A stretch of DNA of 64,000 nucleotides from Kineococcus sp. NBC_00420. GTDB taxonomy: Bacteria > Actinomycetota > Actinomycetes > Actinomycetales > Kineococcaceae. Location of the stretch: positions 3,782,001 to 3,846,000 of the forward strand of contig NZ_CP107930.1 of the NCBI RefSeq assembly GCF_036021035.1, read 5' to 3'. The notes beneath the pieces were generated by a model. It was not told where the DNA came from and did not search any database. It saw only the letters and a program-made list of their open reading frames with translations. The position numbers and the translations under genes were made by a program. Of this stretch, positions 40,565 through 44,908 are shown one piece after another; within the stretch, counting starts at the first letter, position 1; each line of letters starts with the position of its first letter.

Positions 40565-41479
40565 TCAGGTGGCGTCGAGGGGCAGCAGGACACCCTTCAC
40601 GTCGGCGTCGTTCGAGAGGTACTCCTGGACCTTCGGGTCCTGGAACGTCGCGATGAGCGCCTTGACGTTCTCGGTGTCGATCCACTTCGTGCCCACCGTG
40701 AGCTGGCCCGCGAACTCGTCCGGGGCGGCGGGCGCGAAGATCTGCTGCTCGATCGGGATCTTGGCCGCGAGGTAGTACTCGGTGTAGCCGACGGCGGCGT
40801 CGAGGTCGGGCAGGGCGCGGGACTGCGCGCCGAAGTCCAGCAGCGTGAACTGCAGGCCCTTGGGGTTCTCGGCGATGTCGTCGACGGTCGCCGTCCCGAT
40901 GTCCGTCCCCGGTTCGAGGGTGATGAGCCCCGCCTTCTCCAGGACGAACAACCCCTGCGACTCGTTCGCCGGGTCGGAGTACAGCGAGATCGTGCCGCCC
41001 TGCGGGATCTCCGCCGGCGTCTTCCACTTCGAGGACCACAGGCCGAAACCCCACCGGAAGACCGGCGTCGCCGCGGTCTCCTGGAACCCCGGGTTGGCCT
41101 GCAGGACCTGACCCAGCCACAGCTTGTGCTGGTAGATCGTGCCCGCGACCTCGCCGTCGTTCACCGCGCGGTTGATGGTGTTGCTGTCGGCCAGGGCCTT
41201 GAACTCGACGTGGATGCCGTGCGCGGGGGCGACGTCCTTCGCGATGTAGTCGATGAGGGCCTCCTCGCGGGCGTTGCCCTCGGCGGTCGCGACGTAGAGG
41301 GTGGCGCCCGCCTGGGTGTTGGCGCTGTCCTCGCCGCCGAGACGGGGCACGACGACCGCGGCGGCGATCCCGAGCAGGACGACGGCACCGCCGGCCACGA
41401 ACGGCCACAGTCGTCGGCGGCGGACCTCGAAACCGTGGTCGTCGGCGGGCTTGGCGTCGGGGCGGGTCTCAGTGGACAA
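40565..41479 (-). CDS. metQ: methionine ABC transporter substrate-binding protein (NlpA family)
   Basis: A 304-residue NlpA/MetQ-type protein. The binding domain starts ATLYVATAEGNAREEALIDY (about 59-78), with HGIHVEFKALADSNTINRAV and TIYQHKLWL following as in MetQ. The N-terminus has a membrane helix (LWPFVAGGAVVLLGIAAAVV, about 24-43) but no lipobox cysteine, so it seems to be helix-anchored rather than a lipoprotein. The start is TTG at 41479 with GGAGA about 9 nt upstream. It overlaps metI by 11 bp. Confidence 0.88.
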   Translation of the reverse strand: MSTETRPDAKPADDHGFEVRRRRLWPFVAGGAVVLLGIAAAVVVPRLGGEDSANTQAGATLYVATAEGNAREEALIDYIAKDVAPAHGIHVEFKALADSNTINRAVNDGEVAGTIYQHKLWLGQVLQANPGFQETAATPVFRWGFGLWSSKWKTPAEIPQGGTISLYSDPANESQGLFVLEKAGLITLEPGTDIGTATVDDIAENPKGLQFTLLDFGAQSRALPDLDAAVGYTEYYLAAKIPIEQQIFAPAAPDEFAGQLTVGTKWIDTENVKALIATFQDPKVQEYLSNDADVKGVLLPLDAT

Positions 41480-42230
41480 GGGAGTTCTCCAGGTCTGCGG
41501 TGGGGGAGTTCGTGGGGGCGGCGCTGCGGCGACGGGCGCGCGGGTCCGCGAGGCGGGCCAGGGCGTCGCCGAGGAGTTGCACGGAGGCGACCAGGGCGAC
41601 GAGGACGACGATGGTCGCGATCATCACGGCGTGGTCGAAGCGCTGGTACCCGTAGGTGATGGCGAGGTAGCCGACCCCGGGGGCGCCGATCGTCCCGGCG
41701 ATGGCCGAGTACTCGATCATCGCGATGGTGTTGATGGTGAGGCCGCCGATGATCGAGGGCAGCGCCTCGGACAGTTGCACACTCGTGATGACCTGCAGCG
41801 GAGAGGCTCCCGAGGCCTTCGCGACGGCGACCACCGACGGGGGCACCGAGCGCAGCGAGTTCTCCACGATGCGGGCGAAGAACGCGGTGCCGGCCAGGAC
41901 CATCGGCACGACGGCCGCCCGGATGCCGATGTTCGTACCCGTGACGAACCGGGTGAACGGCACGAGCGCCGCCATCAGCACCAGGAACGGCAGGGACCGC
42001 CCGGTGCTGACCACCCAGCCGAGGACGCGGTGGGCCGGGCGGTTCTCCAGCAACCCGTCCGGGGCGAGGTTGTGCAGCAGGACCCCCAGCGGGACCCCGA
42101 GCAGCACGACCAGGGCCATGACGATGCCGACCATCAGCAGGGTGTCGCCGAGGGCGGGCAGGACGAGCGCCGGGATCTGCGGCAGGGGCGTGTCCAGGTT
42201 CGAGGCCAGCGGGAGGGCGGCGGGGCTCAC
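41469..42230 (-). CDS. metI: methionine ABC transporter permease
   Basis: A 253-residue permease with five to six helices. The first is LGDTLLMVGIVMALVVLLGVP (about 27-47). The EAA-type loop VAKASGASPLQVITSVQLSEALP (about 144-166) contacts the ATPase. It forms the MetI dimer of the methionine importer. The GTG start overlaps the metN stop by 4 bp. A long upstream frame is noise from metN. Confidence 0.93.
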   Translation of the reverse strand: MSPAALPLASNLDTPLPQIPALVLPALGDTLLMVGIVMALVVLLGVPLGVLLHNLAPDGLLENRPAHRVLGWVVSTGRSLPFLVLMAALVPFTRFVTGTNIGIRAAVVPMVLAGTAFFARIVENSLRSVPPSVVAVAKASGASPLQVITSVQLSEALPSIIGGLTINTIAMIEYSAIAGTIGAPGVGYLAITYGYQRFDHAVMIATIVVLVALVASVQLLGDALARLADPRARRRSAAPTNSPTADLENSLVH

Positions 42231-43222
42231 GGGACCAGCTCCAGGGTCGAGGGCGCCTCGGTGGCGCGGGTGTGCAGTCCCCGTCGCTCGAGGGCGGCGA
42301 TCAGCCGCGCGGGGTCCACCGAGTCCGGCACCCCGAGGGTGGCGTGCCCGACGGTCCGCCCGGTGACGGCACTCACGGAGGCGCCGAGCAGGGCGAGGTC
42401 GTGACCGAGTTCGCGGGCCGTGCTGGTCAGCCAGTCCGCCGGCACGTCGTCGCCGCGGTAGTGCACCGTCCAGGTGACGAGCCGGGGATCGGTGGCGACC
42501 GCCCGTCGGGGCAGCAGCGCGGCCCCGACGGGCGACCCCGGGTCGCGCAGGACGTCCAGCAGGGGCGCCGACTCGACGATGCGGCCGTGCTCGAGTCGGG
42601 CCACGGAGTCCGCGACCTCGACGACCGTGTCCATCTCGTGGGTGATGAACAGGATGGACAGCCCGAGGTCGTCGCGCAGTTCGCGCAGCAGCGCCACGAT
42701 CGAGGCCGTCGAGCGCGGGTCCAGCCCGGAGGTCGCCTCGTCGGAGAGCAGCACGCTCGGGCGCAGGGCCAGGGCGCGGGCGATCCCGACGCGCTGGCGC
42801 TGACCGCCGGAGAGCTCGTGCGGGTAGCGGCCGGCCAGGTCGGCCAGACCCACCCGCTCCAGCAGCTCGGCGACCCGGGCACGCCGCTCGCGGGGGACGA
42901 CCCCGAGGTAGCGCAACGGGAGTTCCACGTTCTGGGCGGCGGTGCGCCGGGTCTGCAGCCCGTCGGACTGGAAGATCGTGCCGATGCGGCGACGGGCTTC
43001 GCGCAGCCGTCCCTCCCCGAGGTGGGTCAGGTCCTGGCCGCCGACGAGCACGGAACCCGACGTGGGCCGGGTCAGCAGCGTCACGCACTGGGCGAGGGTG
43101 CTCTTGCCGGCCCCGCTCGGCCCGACGACGGCGGTGATGCTGCCGGCGGGGACGAGCAGGTCGAGGCGGTCGAGGACGGTGGTGCTCCCGTAGGTCTTGG
43201 TGAGCTGTCTCAGCTCGATCAT
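42227..43222 (-). CDS. metN: methionine ABC transporter ATP-binding protein
   Basis: A 331-residue ATPase. Walker A is GPSGAGKS (34-41), the signature LSGGQRQRVGIARAL (about 135-149), Walker B VLLSDEATSGLD and the switch His in FITHEMD. The C-terminal part (about 245-331) is the NIL domain that senses methionine and inhibits uptake. The ATG at 43222 is 16 nt from the nearest GGAG; a 4-codon ORF lies in between. Expression should fall when SAM is high because of the SAM-IV riboswitch upstream. Confidence 0.94.
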   Translation of the reverse strand: MIELRQLTKTYGSTTVLDRLDLLVPAGSITAVVGPSGAGKSTLAQCVTLLTRPTSGSVLVGGQDLTHLGEGRLREARRRIGTIFQSDGLQTRRTAAQNVELPLRYLGVVPRERRARVAELLERVGLADLAGRYPHELSGGQRQRVGIARALALRPSVLLSDEATSGLDPRSTASIVALLRELRDDLGLSILFITHEMDTVVEVADSVARLEHGRIVESAPLLDVLRDPGSPVGAALLPRRAVATDPRLVTWTVHYRGDDVPADWLTSTARELGHDLALLGASVSAVTGRTVGHATLGVPDSVDPARLIAALERRGLHTRATEAPSTLELVP

Positions 43223-43233: not shown

Positions 43234-43351
43234 GTCGTCTCCAGGGCGGCGTGGGGCGCGCGAGGGCGCGGCGGGGGAGCGTCGGGCGGACCGGCGCAGG
43301 GGGGACCGCCGGACGGGGTGGCCCGGGGTGTTCAGCGGGGAGTGCGGACGC

Positions 43352-43378
43352 TCAGCGTCGACAGGTCTGGTGGGACAC
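43352..43378 (-). CDS. 8-residue leader peptide candidate (VSHQTCRR)
   Basis: A GTG start with AAGGAG 6 nt upstream encodes eight residues, then TGA. It lies downstream of the SAM-IV riboswitch and 130 bp before metN. The stop sits in a small palindrome, GACGCTGAGCGTC. The strong ribosome site makes translation likely. Its Cys codon suggests a sulfur-amino-acid sensor, but this is inference. Confidence 0.45.
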   Translation of the reverse strand: MSHQTCRR

Positions 43379-43421
43379 GTGCGTCTCCTTCAACGTCCTT
43401 ACCCGCGACACCCGCGGGTCG

Positions 43422-43500
43422 GGTCATCACCCGGAGCACCCCACGACGGAAGGAGGGTTGCCGACCAGCGAGCCGGGGCTTCGCGCTGGTACTCATGACC
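43422..43500 (-). ncRNA. SAM-IV riboswitch, metNIQ leader
   Basis: On the minus strand the P1 arms GGTCAT and ATGACC enclose the conserved core: GAGTACCAGCG, AGCCCCGGCTCGCTGG, GGCAACCCTCC and GTGGGGTGCTCCGGGTG, in the order of the actinobacterial SAM-IV aptamer. It binds S-adenosylmethionine and should turn metNIQ off. A 7-bp stem (ACCCGCG/CGCGGGT, 43401-43419) lies just downstream and may be part of the expression platform. Confidence 0.9.
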
Positions 43501-43507
43501 TGATTCG

Positions 43508-43536
43508 ACAGTGACAGCCGAACCGGGGTCCGTCAA
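43508..43536 (-). promoter_or_regulatory. promoter of metNIQ
   Basis: TTGACG as -35 (43531-43536) and CACTGT as -10 (43508-43513) are 17 bp apart on the minus strand. The predicted start of transcription is just before the riboswitch. Confidence 0.6.
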
Positions 43537-43658
43537 GCGGTTCGGGAAGGTACCGGATATCCGCACCCGGCTTCGAAATCGTTCGTGCGCAACGGCTTGC
43601 GCCGGACCCCTCCGGTGCCGGGCCGGCCCGAGTCGCTGCGGGGCCGCCGACGAGGCGT

Positions 43659-43664
43659 TACAGT
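43659..43664 (+). promoter_or_regulatory. -10 element of sfnG
   Basis: TACAGT ends 8 nt before the first base of the SAM-I aptamer, so transcription would begin at the riboswitch. The -35 region is weak. Confidence 0.45.
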
Positions 43665-43672
43665 TCGCAGGA

Positions 43673-43750
43673 CCATCCAGAGCGGCCGAGAGATCTGGCT
43701 CGACGACGCCGCAGCAACCCGAACCCGGGTGCTACCGCCAGGACCGATGG
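43673..43750 (+). ncRNA. SAM-I (S-box) riboswitch, sfnG leader
   Basis: The P1 arms CCATC and GATGG enclose AGAGCGGCCGAGAGATCTGG, GCCGCAGCAACC and GGGTGCTACCGCCAGG, matching the S-box core in order. The 3' arm of P1 (GATGG) runs directly into the AGGAG of the sfnG ribosome site. SAM binding, by closing P1, should therefore hide the ribosome site: translational control. Confidence 0.9.
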
Positions 43751-43762
43751 AGGAGCACCACC

Positions 43763-44908
43763 ATGTCCGTCAACGAGCCGCTGAAGTTCGCCTACTGGGT
43801 CCCGAACGTGTCGGGCGGCCTGGTCGTCTCCACGATCGAGCAGCGCACCAGCCACGACCCGGCCTACAACGTCGCCGTCGCCCAGGCCGCCGAACGCGTC
43901 GGTTTCGAGTACGCCCTGACCCAGGTCCGCTACCTCGCCTCCTACGGGGCGGACGCGCAGCACGAGTCGACGTCGTTCTCCCTCGCCCTGCTGCTGGCGA
44001 CGCAGAAGCTCAAGGTCATCGCCGCGGTGCACCCCTTCTTCTGGCACCCCGGGGTCCTCGCGAAGTTCGCAGCGACCACCCAGGAACTCACCGACAACCG
44101 CCTCGCGCTGAACGTCGTCTCCGGCTGGTTCAAGAACGAGGCGACCCAGCTCGGGGTCACCTGGCACGAGCACGACGACCGCTACCGCCAGTCCGAGGAG
44201 TTCATCGCCCTGCTGCGCGGGGTGTGGACCGAGGACGGTTACAGCCAGCAGGGTGAGTTCTTCAACGCCGAGGACATCACCTTCCGCCCGCAGCCCAAGG
44301 TGCAGCCGGAACTGTTCCAGGGAGGCAACTCGACTGCCGCGCAGGCGATGGCCGGCCGGGTCAGCGACTGGTACTTCATGAACGGCAAGTCGATCGCCGC
44401 CGCCGCCGCCGGGGTGCGCGAGGTCAGCGCCCTCGCCGCCGGCAACGGCCGCTCGGTGCGGTTCGGGCTCAACGGTTTCGCCGTCGTCCGCGACACCCGC
44501 GACGAGGCCGAGGCCGTCCTCGAGGAGATCATCGCCAAGGCCGACCGCACCAAGGTCGAAGGTTTCGGCGCCGCCGTCCAGGAGGCCGGGAACTCCACCA
44601 GGGACGGCAAGGGCATGTGGGCCGACAGCGAGTTCCGCGACCTCGTCCAGTACAACGACGGTTTCCGCACCGGTCTGGTCGGGACGCCCGACGAGGTCGC
44701 CCGCCGCATCCTGGCCTACCGCCTCGTCGGGGTGGACCTGCTGCTGCTCGGCTTCCTGCACGTCAAGGAGGAGGTCGAGGCGTTCGGCGAGCTCGTCATC
44801 CCGAAGGTGCGCGAACTCGAGGCCCGCCTCGTCGCGGGTGAGGACCTGGACCTCGGCGCGGAACTCGACGAGGCCGTCGTCGCGGCGACCACCCCGGTCC
44901 CCGCCTGA
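43763..44908 (+). CDS. sfnG: dimethyl sulfone monooxygenase SfnG
   Basis: A 381-residue flavin-dependent (LLM-class, FMNH2) monooxygenase. FAYWVPNVSGGLVVS at the start, QVRYLASYGAD, ESTSFSLALLLAT, NVVSGWFKNEATQLG, FQGGNSTAAQAMAGRVSDW and VQYNDGFRTGLVGTPDEVA match SfnG closely. It converts dimethyl sulfone to methanesulfinate so that its sulfur can be used. The ATG at 43763 follows GGAGGAG. Longer frames upstream run through the riboswitch and are not real. Placement under a SAM riboswitch and next to a methionine importer fits sulfur starvation. A flavin reductase partner is not in the window. Confidence 0.95.
   Translation: MSVNEPLKFAYWVPNVSGGLVVSTIEQRTSHDPAYNVAVAQAAERVGFEYALTQVRYLASYGADAQHESTSFSLALLLATQKLKVIAAVHPFFWHPGVLAKFAATTQELTDNRLALNVVSGWFKNEATQLGVTWHEHDDRYRQSEEFIALLRGVWTEDGYSQQGEFFNAEDITFRPQPKVQPELFQGGNSTAAQAMAGRVSDWYFMNGKSIAAAAAGVREVSALAAGNGRSVRFGLNGFAVVRDTRDEAEAVLEEIIAKADRTKVEGFGAAVQEAGNSTRDGKGMWADSEFRDLVQYNDGFRTGLVGTPDEVARRILAYRLVGVDLLLLGFLHVKEEVEAFGELVIPKVRELEARLVAGEDLDLGAELDEAVVAATTPVPA

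Follow-up and report, generated by a model that had tools for sequence, protein, structure and literature searches.

Divergent SAM-I and SAM-IV aptamers between sfnG and metNIQ-like genes of Kineococcus, with a candidate cysteine leader ORF behind SAM-IV

SAM-I and SAM-IV riboswitches share the Rfam clan CL00012 and are described as having similar cores in the available part of PMC6890682, and their presence together in one actinomycete has already been reported for Streptomyces lividans (PMC8079986, available in part). Contiguous riboswitches are the subject of PMC12452182, the accessible portion of which mentions no divergent or opposite-strand arrangement. Short ORFs ahead of regulated genes are described from other actinobacterial leaders. 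The mycobacterial cys operons are without conserved terminator hairpins, and Rho was suggested for them in 2005 (PMC1262725, in the part available), while the accessible portions of two other reports describe Rho-dependent termination at an Mbox-controlled uORF (PMC12810186) and re-initiation at the uORF of ppe2, which has a B12 riboswitch (PMC11260477).

The locus described here lies in a 64,000-nucleotide stretch of the Kineococcus sp. NBC_00420 chromosome ("the window", whose numbering is used below unless a contig is named). Searched with Rfam at curated gathering thresholds, the window yields two matches in total. A SAM-IV aptamer (RF00634) runs on the minus strand from 43500 to 43390 (90.6 bits, cut-off 38, E 5.1e-15 in the whole window) and leads the metNIQ side; a SAM-I, or S-box, aptamer (RF00162) occupies 43670-43753 on the plus strand (49.2 bits, 4.8 above the cut-off of 44.4, E 2.9e-8) and leads sfnG. 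Both alignments are full length, covering model positions 1-116 and 1-108, respectively. The original prediction, made by eye from the sequence, had placed the aptamers at 43422-43500 and 43673-43750; the covariance search confirms both, with those coordinates marking the cores and the Rfam ends lying wider. It was right, too, that the two are read outward from a common centre, which measures 169 bp by the Rfam ends (43501-43669) rather than 172 bp, but its view of the two sensors as unrelated-looking fails on the shared clan and the similar cores. Both promoters are presumably located in this centre, in which a consensus scan found no strict sigma-70 promoter match. Judged from sequence, both aptamers would bind SAM and act as SAM-OFF switches.

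The SAM-I aptamer of the window has a peculiarity of its own. Its cmscan alignment omits most P4 positions, and most of the P4 helix is apparently missing in it and in 24 aligned relatives; in the genus alignment about 15 nt separate GGTGC from P1 in the relatives. A 2-bp remnant of P4 may persist, and the near-absence of this helix may be why the Rfam score stands just above the cut-off. Minimum free energy folds of the full leaders miss the native aptamer, which contains pseudoknots, and were left unused.

On the plus strand the layout is simple. The sfnG gene (43763-44908) encodes a dimethylsulfone monooxygenase that scores 594 bits with TIGR04021, against an equivalog cut-off of 382.95. 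P1 of the aptamer pairs CCATC (43673-43677) with GATGG (43746-43750), the Shine-Dalgarno sequence GGAGGAG (43749-43755) overlaps P1 by two bases in a layout similar to that of relatives, and the ATG follows at 43763. In all eight genus genomes in which a SAM-I-sfnG unit was read, sfnG starts 8-11 nt past P1 with no leader ORF. The overlap and this spacing support direct translational control of sfnG, the mode that had been predicted from the position of the S-box on the ribosome site: bound SAM would shut P1, the 3' strand of P1 would enter the Shine-Dalgarno sequence, and translation of sfnG would stop at high SAM. The aptamer RNA with the start region folds better than its shuffles (z -2.2), but the fold is not that of the native aptamer.

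The association of sfnG with a SAM aptamer is not unique to this locus. The nearest named SfnG relatives are those of Kineococcus vitellinus (89% identity), K. indalonis (88%) and K. siccus (83%), followed by Quadrisphaera, and a SAM-I match lies within 170 nt upstream in 13 of the best 80 SfnG loci (three Kineococcus, three Quadrisphaera-like and seven Specibacter/Arthrobacter). The model used for these loci, R1, rests on 24 SAM-I sequences, two of the Quadrisphaera ones included. In a further eight Arthrobacter/Pseudarthrobacter loci the SAM-I match lies farther off, at 2.0-2.4 kb upstream, and at one of these loci it is weak (34 bits). Rfam, applied to 15 of the 80, confirmed the sfnG-proximal SAM-I of two (L115 and L117). 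At the locus of Arthrobacter sp. 131MFCol6.1 (L145, 1319-2231), it confirmed the minus-strand SAM-I, which stands at a metN-like gene; the distant, divergent plus-strand R1 match (78.7 bits) faces sfnG and a sulfhydrylase-like gene and is not over the Rfam cut-off.

The minus strand is arranged otherwise. The genes there are MetNIQ homologues, for which the best family names are the Met ones, all at scores below curated cut-offs: a metN-like ABC ATPase (42227-43222; TIGR02314, 236.7 bits, cut-off 499.7), a metI-like permease whose start codon is not settled (41469-42227; NF008049, 163.5 bits, cut-off 212) and a metQ-like lipoprotein (40565-41479; PF03180, Lipoprotein_9, 130 bits; MetQ equivalog 85.9 bits, cut-off 228.85). 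The predicted gene names thus survive on both sides, that of sfnG over its cut-off and those of metNIQ under theirs. The first ribosome site 3' of SAM-IV opens not metN but an ORF of eight codons (43352-43378, minus strand), GTG TCC CAC CAG ACC TGT CGA CGC TGA, or VSHQTCRR* with M at the start. Its Shine-Dalgarno sequence, AAGGAG (43385-43390, minus strand), adjoins the 3' end of the aptamer. The start of metN comes 168 nt past the Rfam end of SAM-IV in the window and 128-175 nt past it across the five genomes that carry a sfnG/metN pair; the predicted distance of about 200 nt was sound, but the cysteine ORF in between had been overlooked. All five genomes have GGAG or GGGAG at the place of the leader Shine-Dalgarno sequence and keep a leader ORF with a UGU cysteine codon, the other four peptides being VTKACRRSR, VSKACPRSR, VSKDCRRSR and VPKACRRSR. 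Several points speak against reading these as leader peptides: with eight or nine codons and one cysteine they fall below the 20 residues needed for profile (HMM) comparison, their conservation could reflect RNA structure, and in two genomes (G006 and G002) mechanical rules for choosing starts led as well to overlapping starts in other frames.

Between the leader ORF and the metN Shine-Dalgarno sequence lies a C-rich, G-poor stretch (43237-43351, minus strand; C 0.57, G 0.27). The distance from leader stop to metN ribosome site is 73-120 nt, and in all five metN gaps the C/G ratio is 1.88-2.21. A consensus scan found no intrinsic terminator between the leader ORF and metN. This composition and the lack of a detected terminator favour Rho, and 43237-43351 is a possible Rho loading region. 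Comparable gaps behind SAM-I cysteine leaders have more C than G in all 36 that could be measured (mean C 0.517, G 0.283), against 27 of 45 other 5' flanks of the window's own genome (C 0.384, G 0.348). The hint is only partly specific, since SAM-IV leaders coupled directly to a gene are C-rich as well (C 0.457, G 0.322; C above G in 29 of 29). Hairpins near the window's leader ORF are no better than those of shuffled sequences (z 0.08 and -0.81); hairpins picked by eye in the five leaders vary in place, and a hairpin attenuator is not claimed. Nor is a PK-2 duplex in which the P3 loop of SAM-IV would pair with the 3' tail and the leader Shine-Dalgarno sequence; the pairing extends 4-6 nt past the aptamer in three of the five metN-type sequences, and duplexes are predicted in all five but beat shuffled tails (<5%) in one.

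The reading preferred here, at evenly balanced confidence, is that SAM-I blocks translation of sfnG, that SAM-IV gates a cysteine leader peptide before metNIQ, and that this metN block has been joined to a SAM-I/sfnG unit. Two separate SAM-OFF leaders would be transcribed outward from the one 169-bp region. SAM-IV would control the ribosome site of the eight-codon ORF, in which the UGU cysteine codon is followed by Arg-Arg, and not metN directly. At high SAM the leader ORF would go untranslated, the C-rich stretch would be left bare, and transcription of metNIQ would end, probably by Rho; at low SAM the leader ORF would be translated, and slow decoding of cysteine during cysteine shortage would keep metNIQ on. 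SAM and cysteine may thus be read together at metNIQ. SAM binding and the OFF direction of both leaders and, at metN, translation of the leader, the part of Rho and the response to cysteine with its sign are all predictions from sequence.

A plainer account is possible, though rather unlikely: sulfur operons cluster, the aptamers are two standard SAM-OFF switches of one clan, SAM-IV regulates metN, and the short ORF is incidental. Both aptamers are indeed ordinary members of their Rfam families, and the failure of the leader hairpins to beat shuffles fits such an account. It also draws support from 136 surveyed SAM-IV loci, of which the family supplied 46 and the class 90 (about 23 further class matches lie outside the survey), and for which the first start led by a Shine-Dalgarno sequence 5-75 nt past the aptamer was recorded. 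A long ORF is opened, the gene thus directly, in 83 loci and a short ORF in 40, and neither was found in 13. By this rule a short ORF follows only 10 of the 46 family SAM-IV aptamers, and 6 of the 10 SAM aptamers in the window's own genome open a gene directly, both of which weigh against a leader-peptide reading. In the 34 distinct short ORFs, a few of them as doubtful as M and MGP, cysteine accounts for 6.0% of the residues; the opening 25 residues of long genes contain 0.9%. Seventeen of the 34 have a cysteine within the last nine residues, compared with 4 of 82 long genes (P 7e-8). The enrichment is not specific to the frame, however: cysteine makes up 6.3% in frame +1 and 0.9% in frame +2, so that frame +1 is equally cysteine-rich, the use of this enrichment as proof of translation is weakened, and the plainer account gains. 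What tells against that account is the retention of the Shine-Dalgarno sequence and UGU-containing ORF in five of five genomes, with metN displaced behind them, and the association of NF042934 leader peptides with SAM aptamers across the genus (11 of 16).

The short ORFs of the SAM-IV survey are varied. Besides MCCCRMQQVTGA, MCIRRMCCR and MNHHRMRR before sulfhydrylase-like genes, and peptides of the type RRHVDL..S..C, they include MSKRMR, MNQRMR and MSQRMR before a desulfurase-like gene of family f22. In ten f22 loci (L182, L184, L186, L188, L191, L192, L200, L203, L219 and L221) with this desulfurase-like gene behind SAM-IV, one of these six-residue ORFs stands where relatives start the gene. 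In the window's own genome another SAM-IV aptamer (L017, C1:1360686) leads an SfnB/DszC-like oxidoreductase (SfnB 229.8 bits, cut-off 430.9), likely another organosulfur gene.

NF042934 is the NCBIfam "putative leader peptide" family, and its matches, found independently of the aptamers, can be placed against them in whole genomes. The 11 whole Kineococcus genomes contain 16 matches over the cut-off, of which 11 have a SAM-I or SAM-IV aptamer 20-58 nt ahead of them on their own strand. With the limit relaxed to E<=1e-3, the count directly behind a SAM aptamer is 19 of 37; chance would give about 0.01. None of 14 control genomes has a match over the cut-off. For the family sample of 12 genomes (the window's own, ten of the genus and one of a sister genus), 88 of the 90 SAM-I matches were read, taking as start the first ATG or GTG that lies no more than 30 nt past P1. 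This start belongs to a short ORF in 51 cases and to a long ORF in 34; three have no such start. A VDL-type motif together with cysteine occurs in 38 of the 50 distinct SAM-I short ORFs. Compared with NF042934 at E<=0.01, 26 of the 39 tested match; the 11 left out were eight without cysteine, mostly of the metF type, one cysteine-containing ORF of 18 residues and two ORFs of 14 residues. Of the SAM-IV leader ORFs tested, six of seven score over the cut-off. Genes behind NF042934-type leader peptides include those for solute-binding proteins, luciferase-like monooxygenases and rhodanese. The window's own genome has two such leaders, both behind SAM-I and both below the cut-off of 27 (15.7 and 15.4 bits): MISRTRSTLTRRFHVDF... 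and MPEHRLTRRLVIDLLRSAGMTCRA. These cysteine leader peptides, of the HVDF/VIDL type, follow the SAM-I aptamers at C1:4533126 (L013) and C1:1058379 (L015), and the genes behind them are for a solute-binding protein and a sulfhydrylase-like protein.

A wider proposal, held tentatively and at a little under even confidence, is that in Kineococcus both aptamer classes, and in other actinobacteria SAM-IV, are fused to sulfur-amino-acid leaders, the riboswitch deciding whether a leader ORF that senses cysteine (or methionine) is translated. Such a leader would be a two-input gate, answering when SAM is low and Cys-tRNA is low, with Rho as effector, and the leader in the window would be its minimal, eight-codon form.

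The leader ORF might instead serve as a re-initiation device or a spacer that carries ribosomes toward metN, with no sensing of cysteine. Termination-reinitiation is described for PPE2 in the available part of PMC11260477, and the metF-type SAM-I leaders, mostly cysteine-less ORFs of 18-20 codons, lend the idea some weight, as do the 4-nt stop/start overlaps in three genomes (one of which, G011, does have a cysteine). In this type (L011 of the own genome, L083, L084 and L065) the ORF begins 2-4 nt past P1, and it is in the last three that stop and next start share 4 nt, which hints at translational coupling. The metN leader ORF, by contrast, leaves 73-120 nt between its stop and the ribosome site of metN, and its cysteine codon is UGU in five of five genomes although UGC dominates in the long ORFs of the survey (150 UGC to 34 UGU). 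A leader ORF at metN that acts only in this way is judged unlikely.

The divergent arrangement itself recurs. The 12 family genomes contain 46 SAM-IV and 90 SAM-I matches, 87 of the latter over the cut-off, and among these are 15 divergent SAM-I/SAM-IV neighbour pairs with gaps of 65-169 bp, in seven genomes: five sfnG/metN, six metF/desulfurase and four others. In one pair the SAM-I falls just below the cut-off (G003, 42.1 bits). Tandem or convergent SAM matches within 200 bp were absent from the 12 genomes. Uniform placement would give about 0.008 divergent pairs in the 11 genus genomes, and a cruder null that assumes some 1500 upstream regions per genome gives 0.13. Searched under stricter filters and read by eye, 147 other genomes of the class gave a single SAM-I/SAM-IV pair, in G042 with a gap of 164, and a single SAM-IV/SAM-IV pair, in G057; the SAM-I/SAM-IV arrangement is thus frequent in Kineococcus and rare in this class sample. 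The own genome, 5.43 Mb in one contig, has six SAM-I and four SAM-IV aptamers over the cut-offs, two of each in back-to-back pairs. Its second pair (L011, C1:1705719-1706085) has arms at 1705719-1705810 (minus) and 1705971-1706085 (plus), with SAM-I before metF-metE and SAM-IV leading a cysteine-desulfurase-like gene that has FMN monooxygenase genes behind it. Paralogy of the two own-genome loci was considered and rejected, the genes of this pair differing from sfnG and metNIQ. Divergent SAM-IV/SAM-IV pairs stand at L082 (G007, C31:54637-55046) and L227 (G057, C16). The two arms of L227 differ: behind one comes the cysteine leader peptide RRHVDLVRVASCTCR, behind the other a gene of the desulfurase-like kind.

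Such recurrence would suit a selected device in which sensors of different class give the two operons different SAM thresholds, as the original prediction had suggested: 15 pairs in 7 of 12 genomes far exceed the uniform expectation, they involve several kinds of locus, and one similar pair occurs in another family (G042). Yet other Kineococcus have the SAM-I/sfnG unit by itself, G007 and G057 each have a pair in which both members are SAM-IV, and L145 has SAM-I at metN with a divergent SAM-I-like R1 match toward sfnG. By these SAM-IV/SAM-IV pairs and the L145 arrangement, mixed classes are not required, and a device of this kind is quite improbable.

The surroundings of the pair point to how it may have arisen. 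The window and two relatives (G002 and G004) share a gene order that runs purH, a 94-residue ORF, metQ-metI-metN (reversed) and sfnG, and both aptamers lie in the space separating metN from sfnG. The 94-residue ORF is also present in K. vitellinus, K. indalonis, K. siccus and G007, but there SAM-I and sfnG come immediately after it, and those four stretches gave no match to metN, metI or metQ. At three Quadrisphaera-like loci purH and SAM-I-sfnG are present, metNIQ gave no match, and the 94-residue ORF went undetected. Given the four other Kineococcus loci with SAM-I-sfnG and without metNIQ, the pair in the window looks assembled, and a purpose-built pair is not needed there. A block of metNIQ, leader and SAM-IV would have been joined onto a pre-existing SAM-I/sfnG unit, gain of the block at this locus rather than its loss elsewhere being the simplest reading. 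As a whole, the observation in the original prediction is confirmed and its interpretation partly supported.

If the proposal is true, it would show how a cell separates "SAM is low" from "sulfur is low". The composite regulator that it describes is open to test: an aptamer for a metabolite would sit on a leader peptide that senses a codon of the same pathway, at many loci in one genus and with two aptamer classes, and the bare sfnG riboswitch is a built-in control for the composite leader. Annotation of SAM-IV targets by the nearest large gene may miss the real first target, a leader ORF. In the own genome, organosulfur scavenging stands under SAM aptamers, with SfnG and with SfnB-like and DmoA-like genes (scores under or near cut-offs). 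Searches of the open-access literature by title found no report of divergent SAM-I/SAM-IV pairs or of SAM-controlled sfnG, and among the open-access matches listed there was none of a SAM riboswitch gating a cysteine leader peptide. Each element is known, namely two SAM classes in one actinomycete, cysteine leader peptides and riboswitch-linked uORFs; the combination is unreported among the matches listed.

Set beside the known systems, the aptamers of the window are both over curated cut-offs, as known members of the SAM-I and SAM-IV classes. What differs is their divergent pairing and the leader ORF behind an aptamer, features absent from the available parts of the sources. The B12 riboswitches of metE and ppe2 and the Mbox of pe20 are alike in that a riboswitch is tied to a short ORF upstream of a gene in an actinobacterium; their ligands are others, and in the parts of the sources available their uORFs are not described as cysteine sensors, whereas here SAM and the cysteine codon belong to one pathway. 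The S. lividans metL ORF (MSTTSDRTPATEATTTPGARCMCRRMCAF) also precedes metNIQ as a short ORF with cysteine and CRR, but the accessible portion of PMC8079986 describes it as leaderless and describes no SAM-IV before it, while the ORF in the window stands behind SAM-IV. The closest likeness among leader peptides is to the NF042934 cis_reg_atten family, the Ms4527A/Ms5788A families and the cys leaders of Seliverstov 2005, in the cysteine leader ORFs found behind SAM aptamers; what sets these leaders apart from the known actinobacterial cysteine leader peptides is a ribosome site that forms part of a SAM riboswitch.
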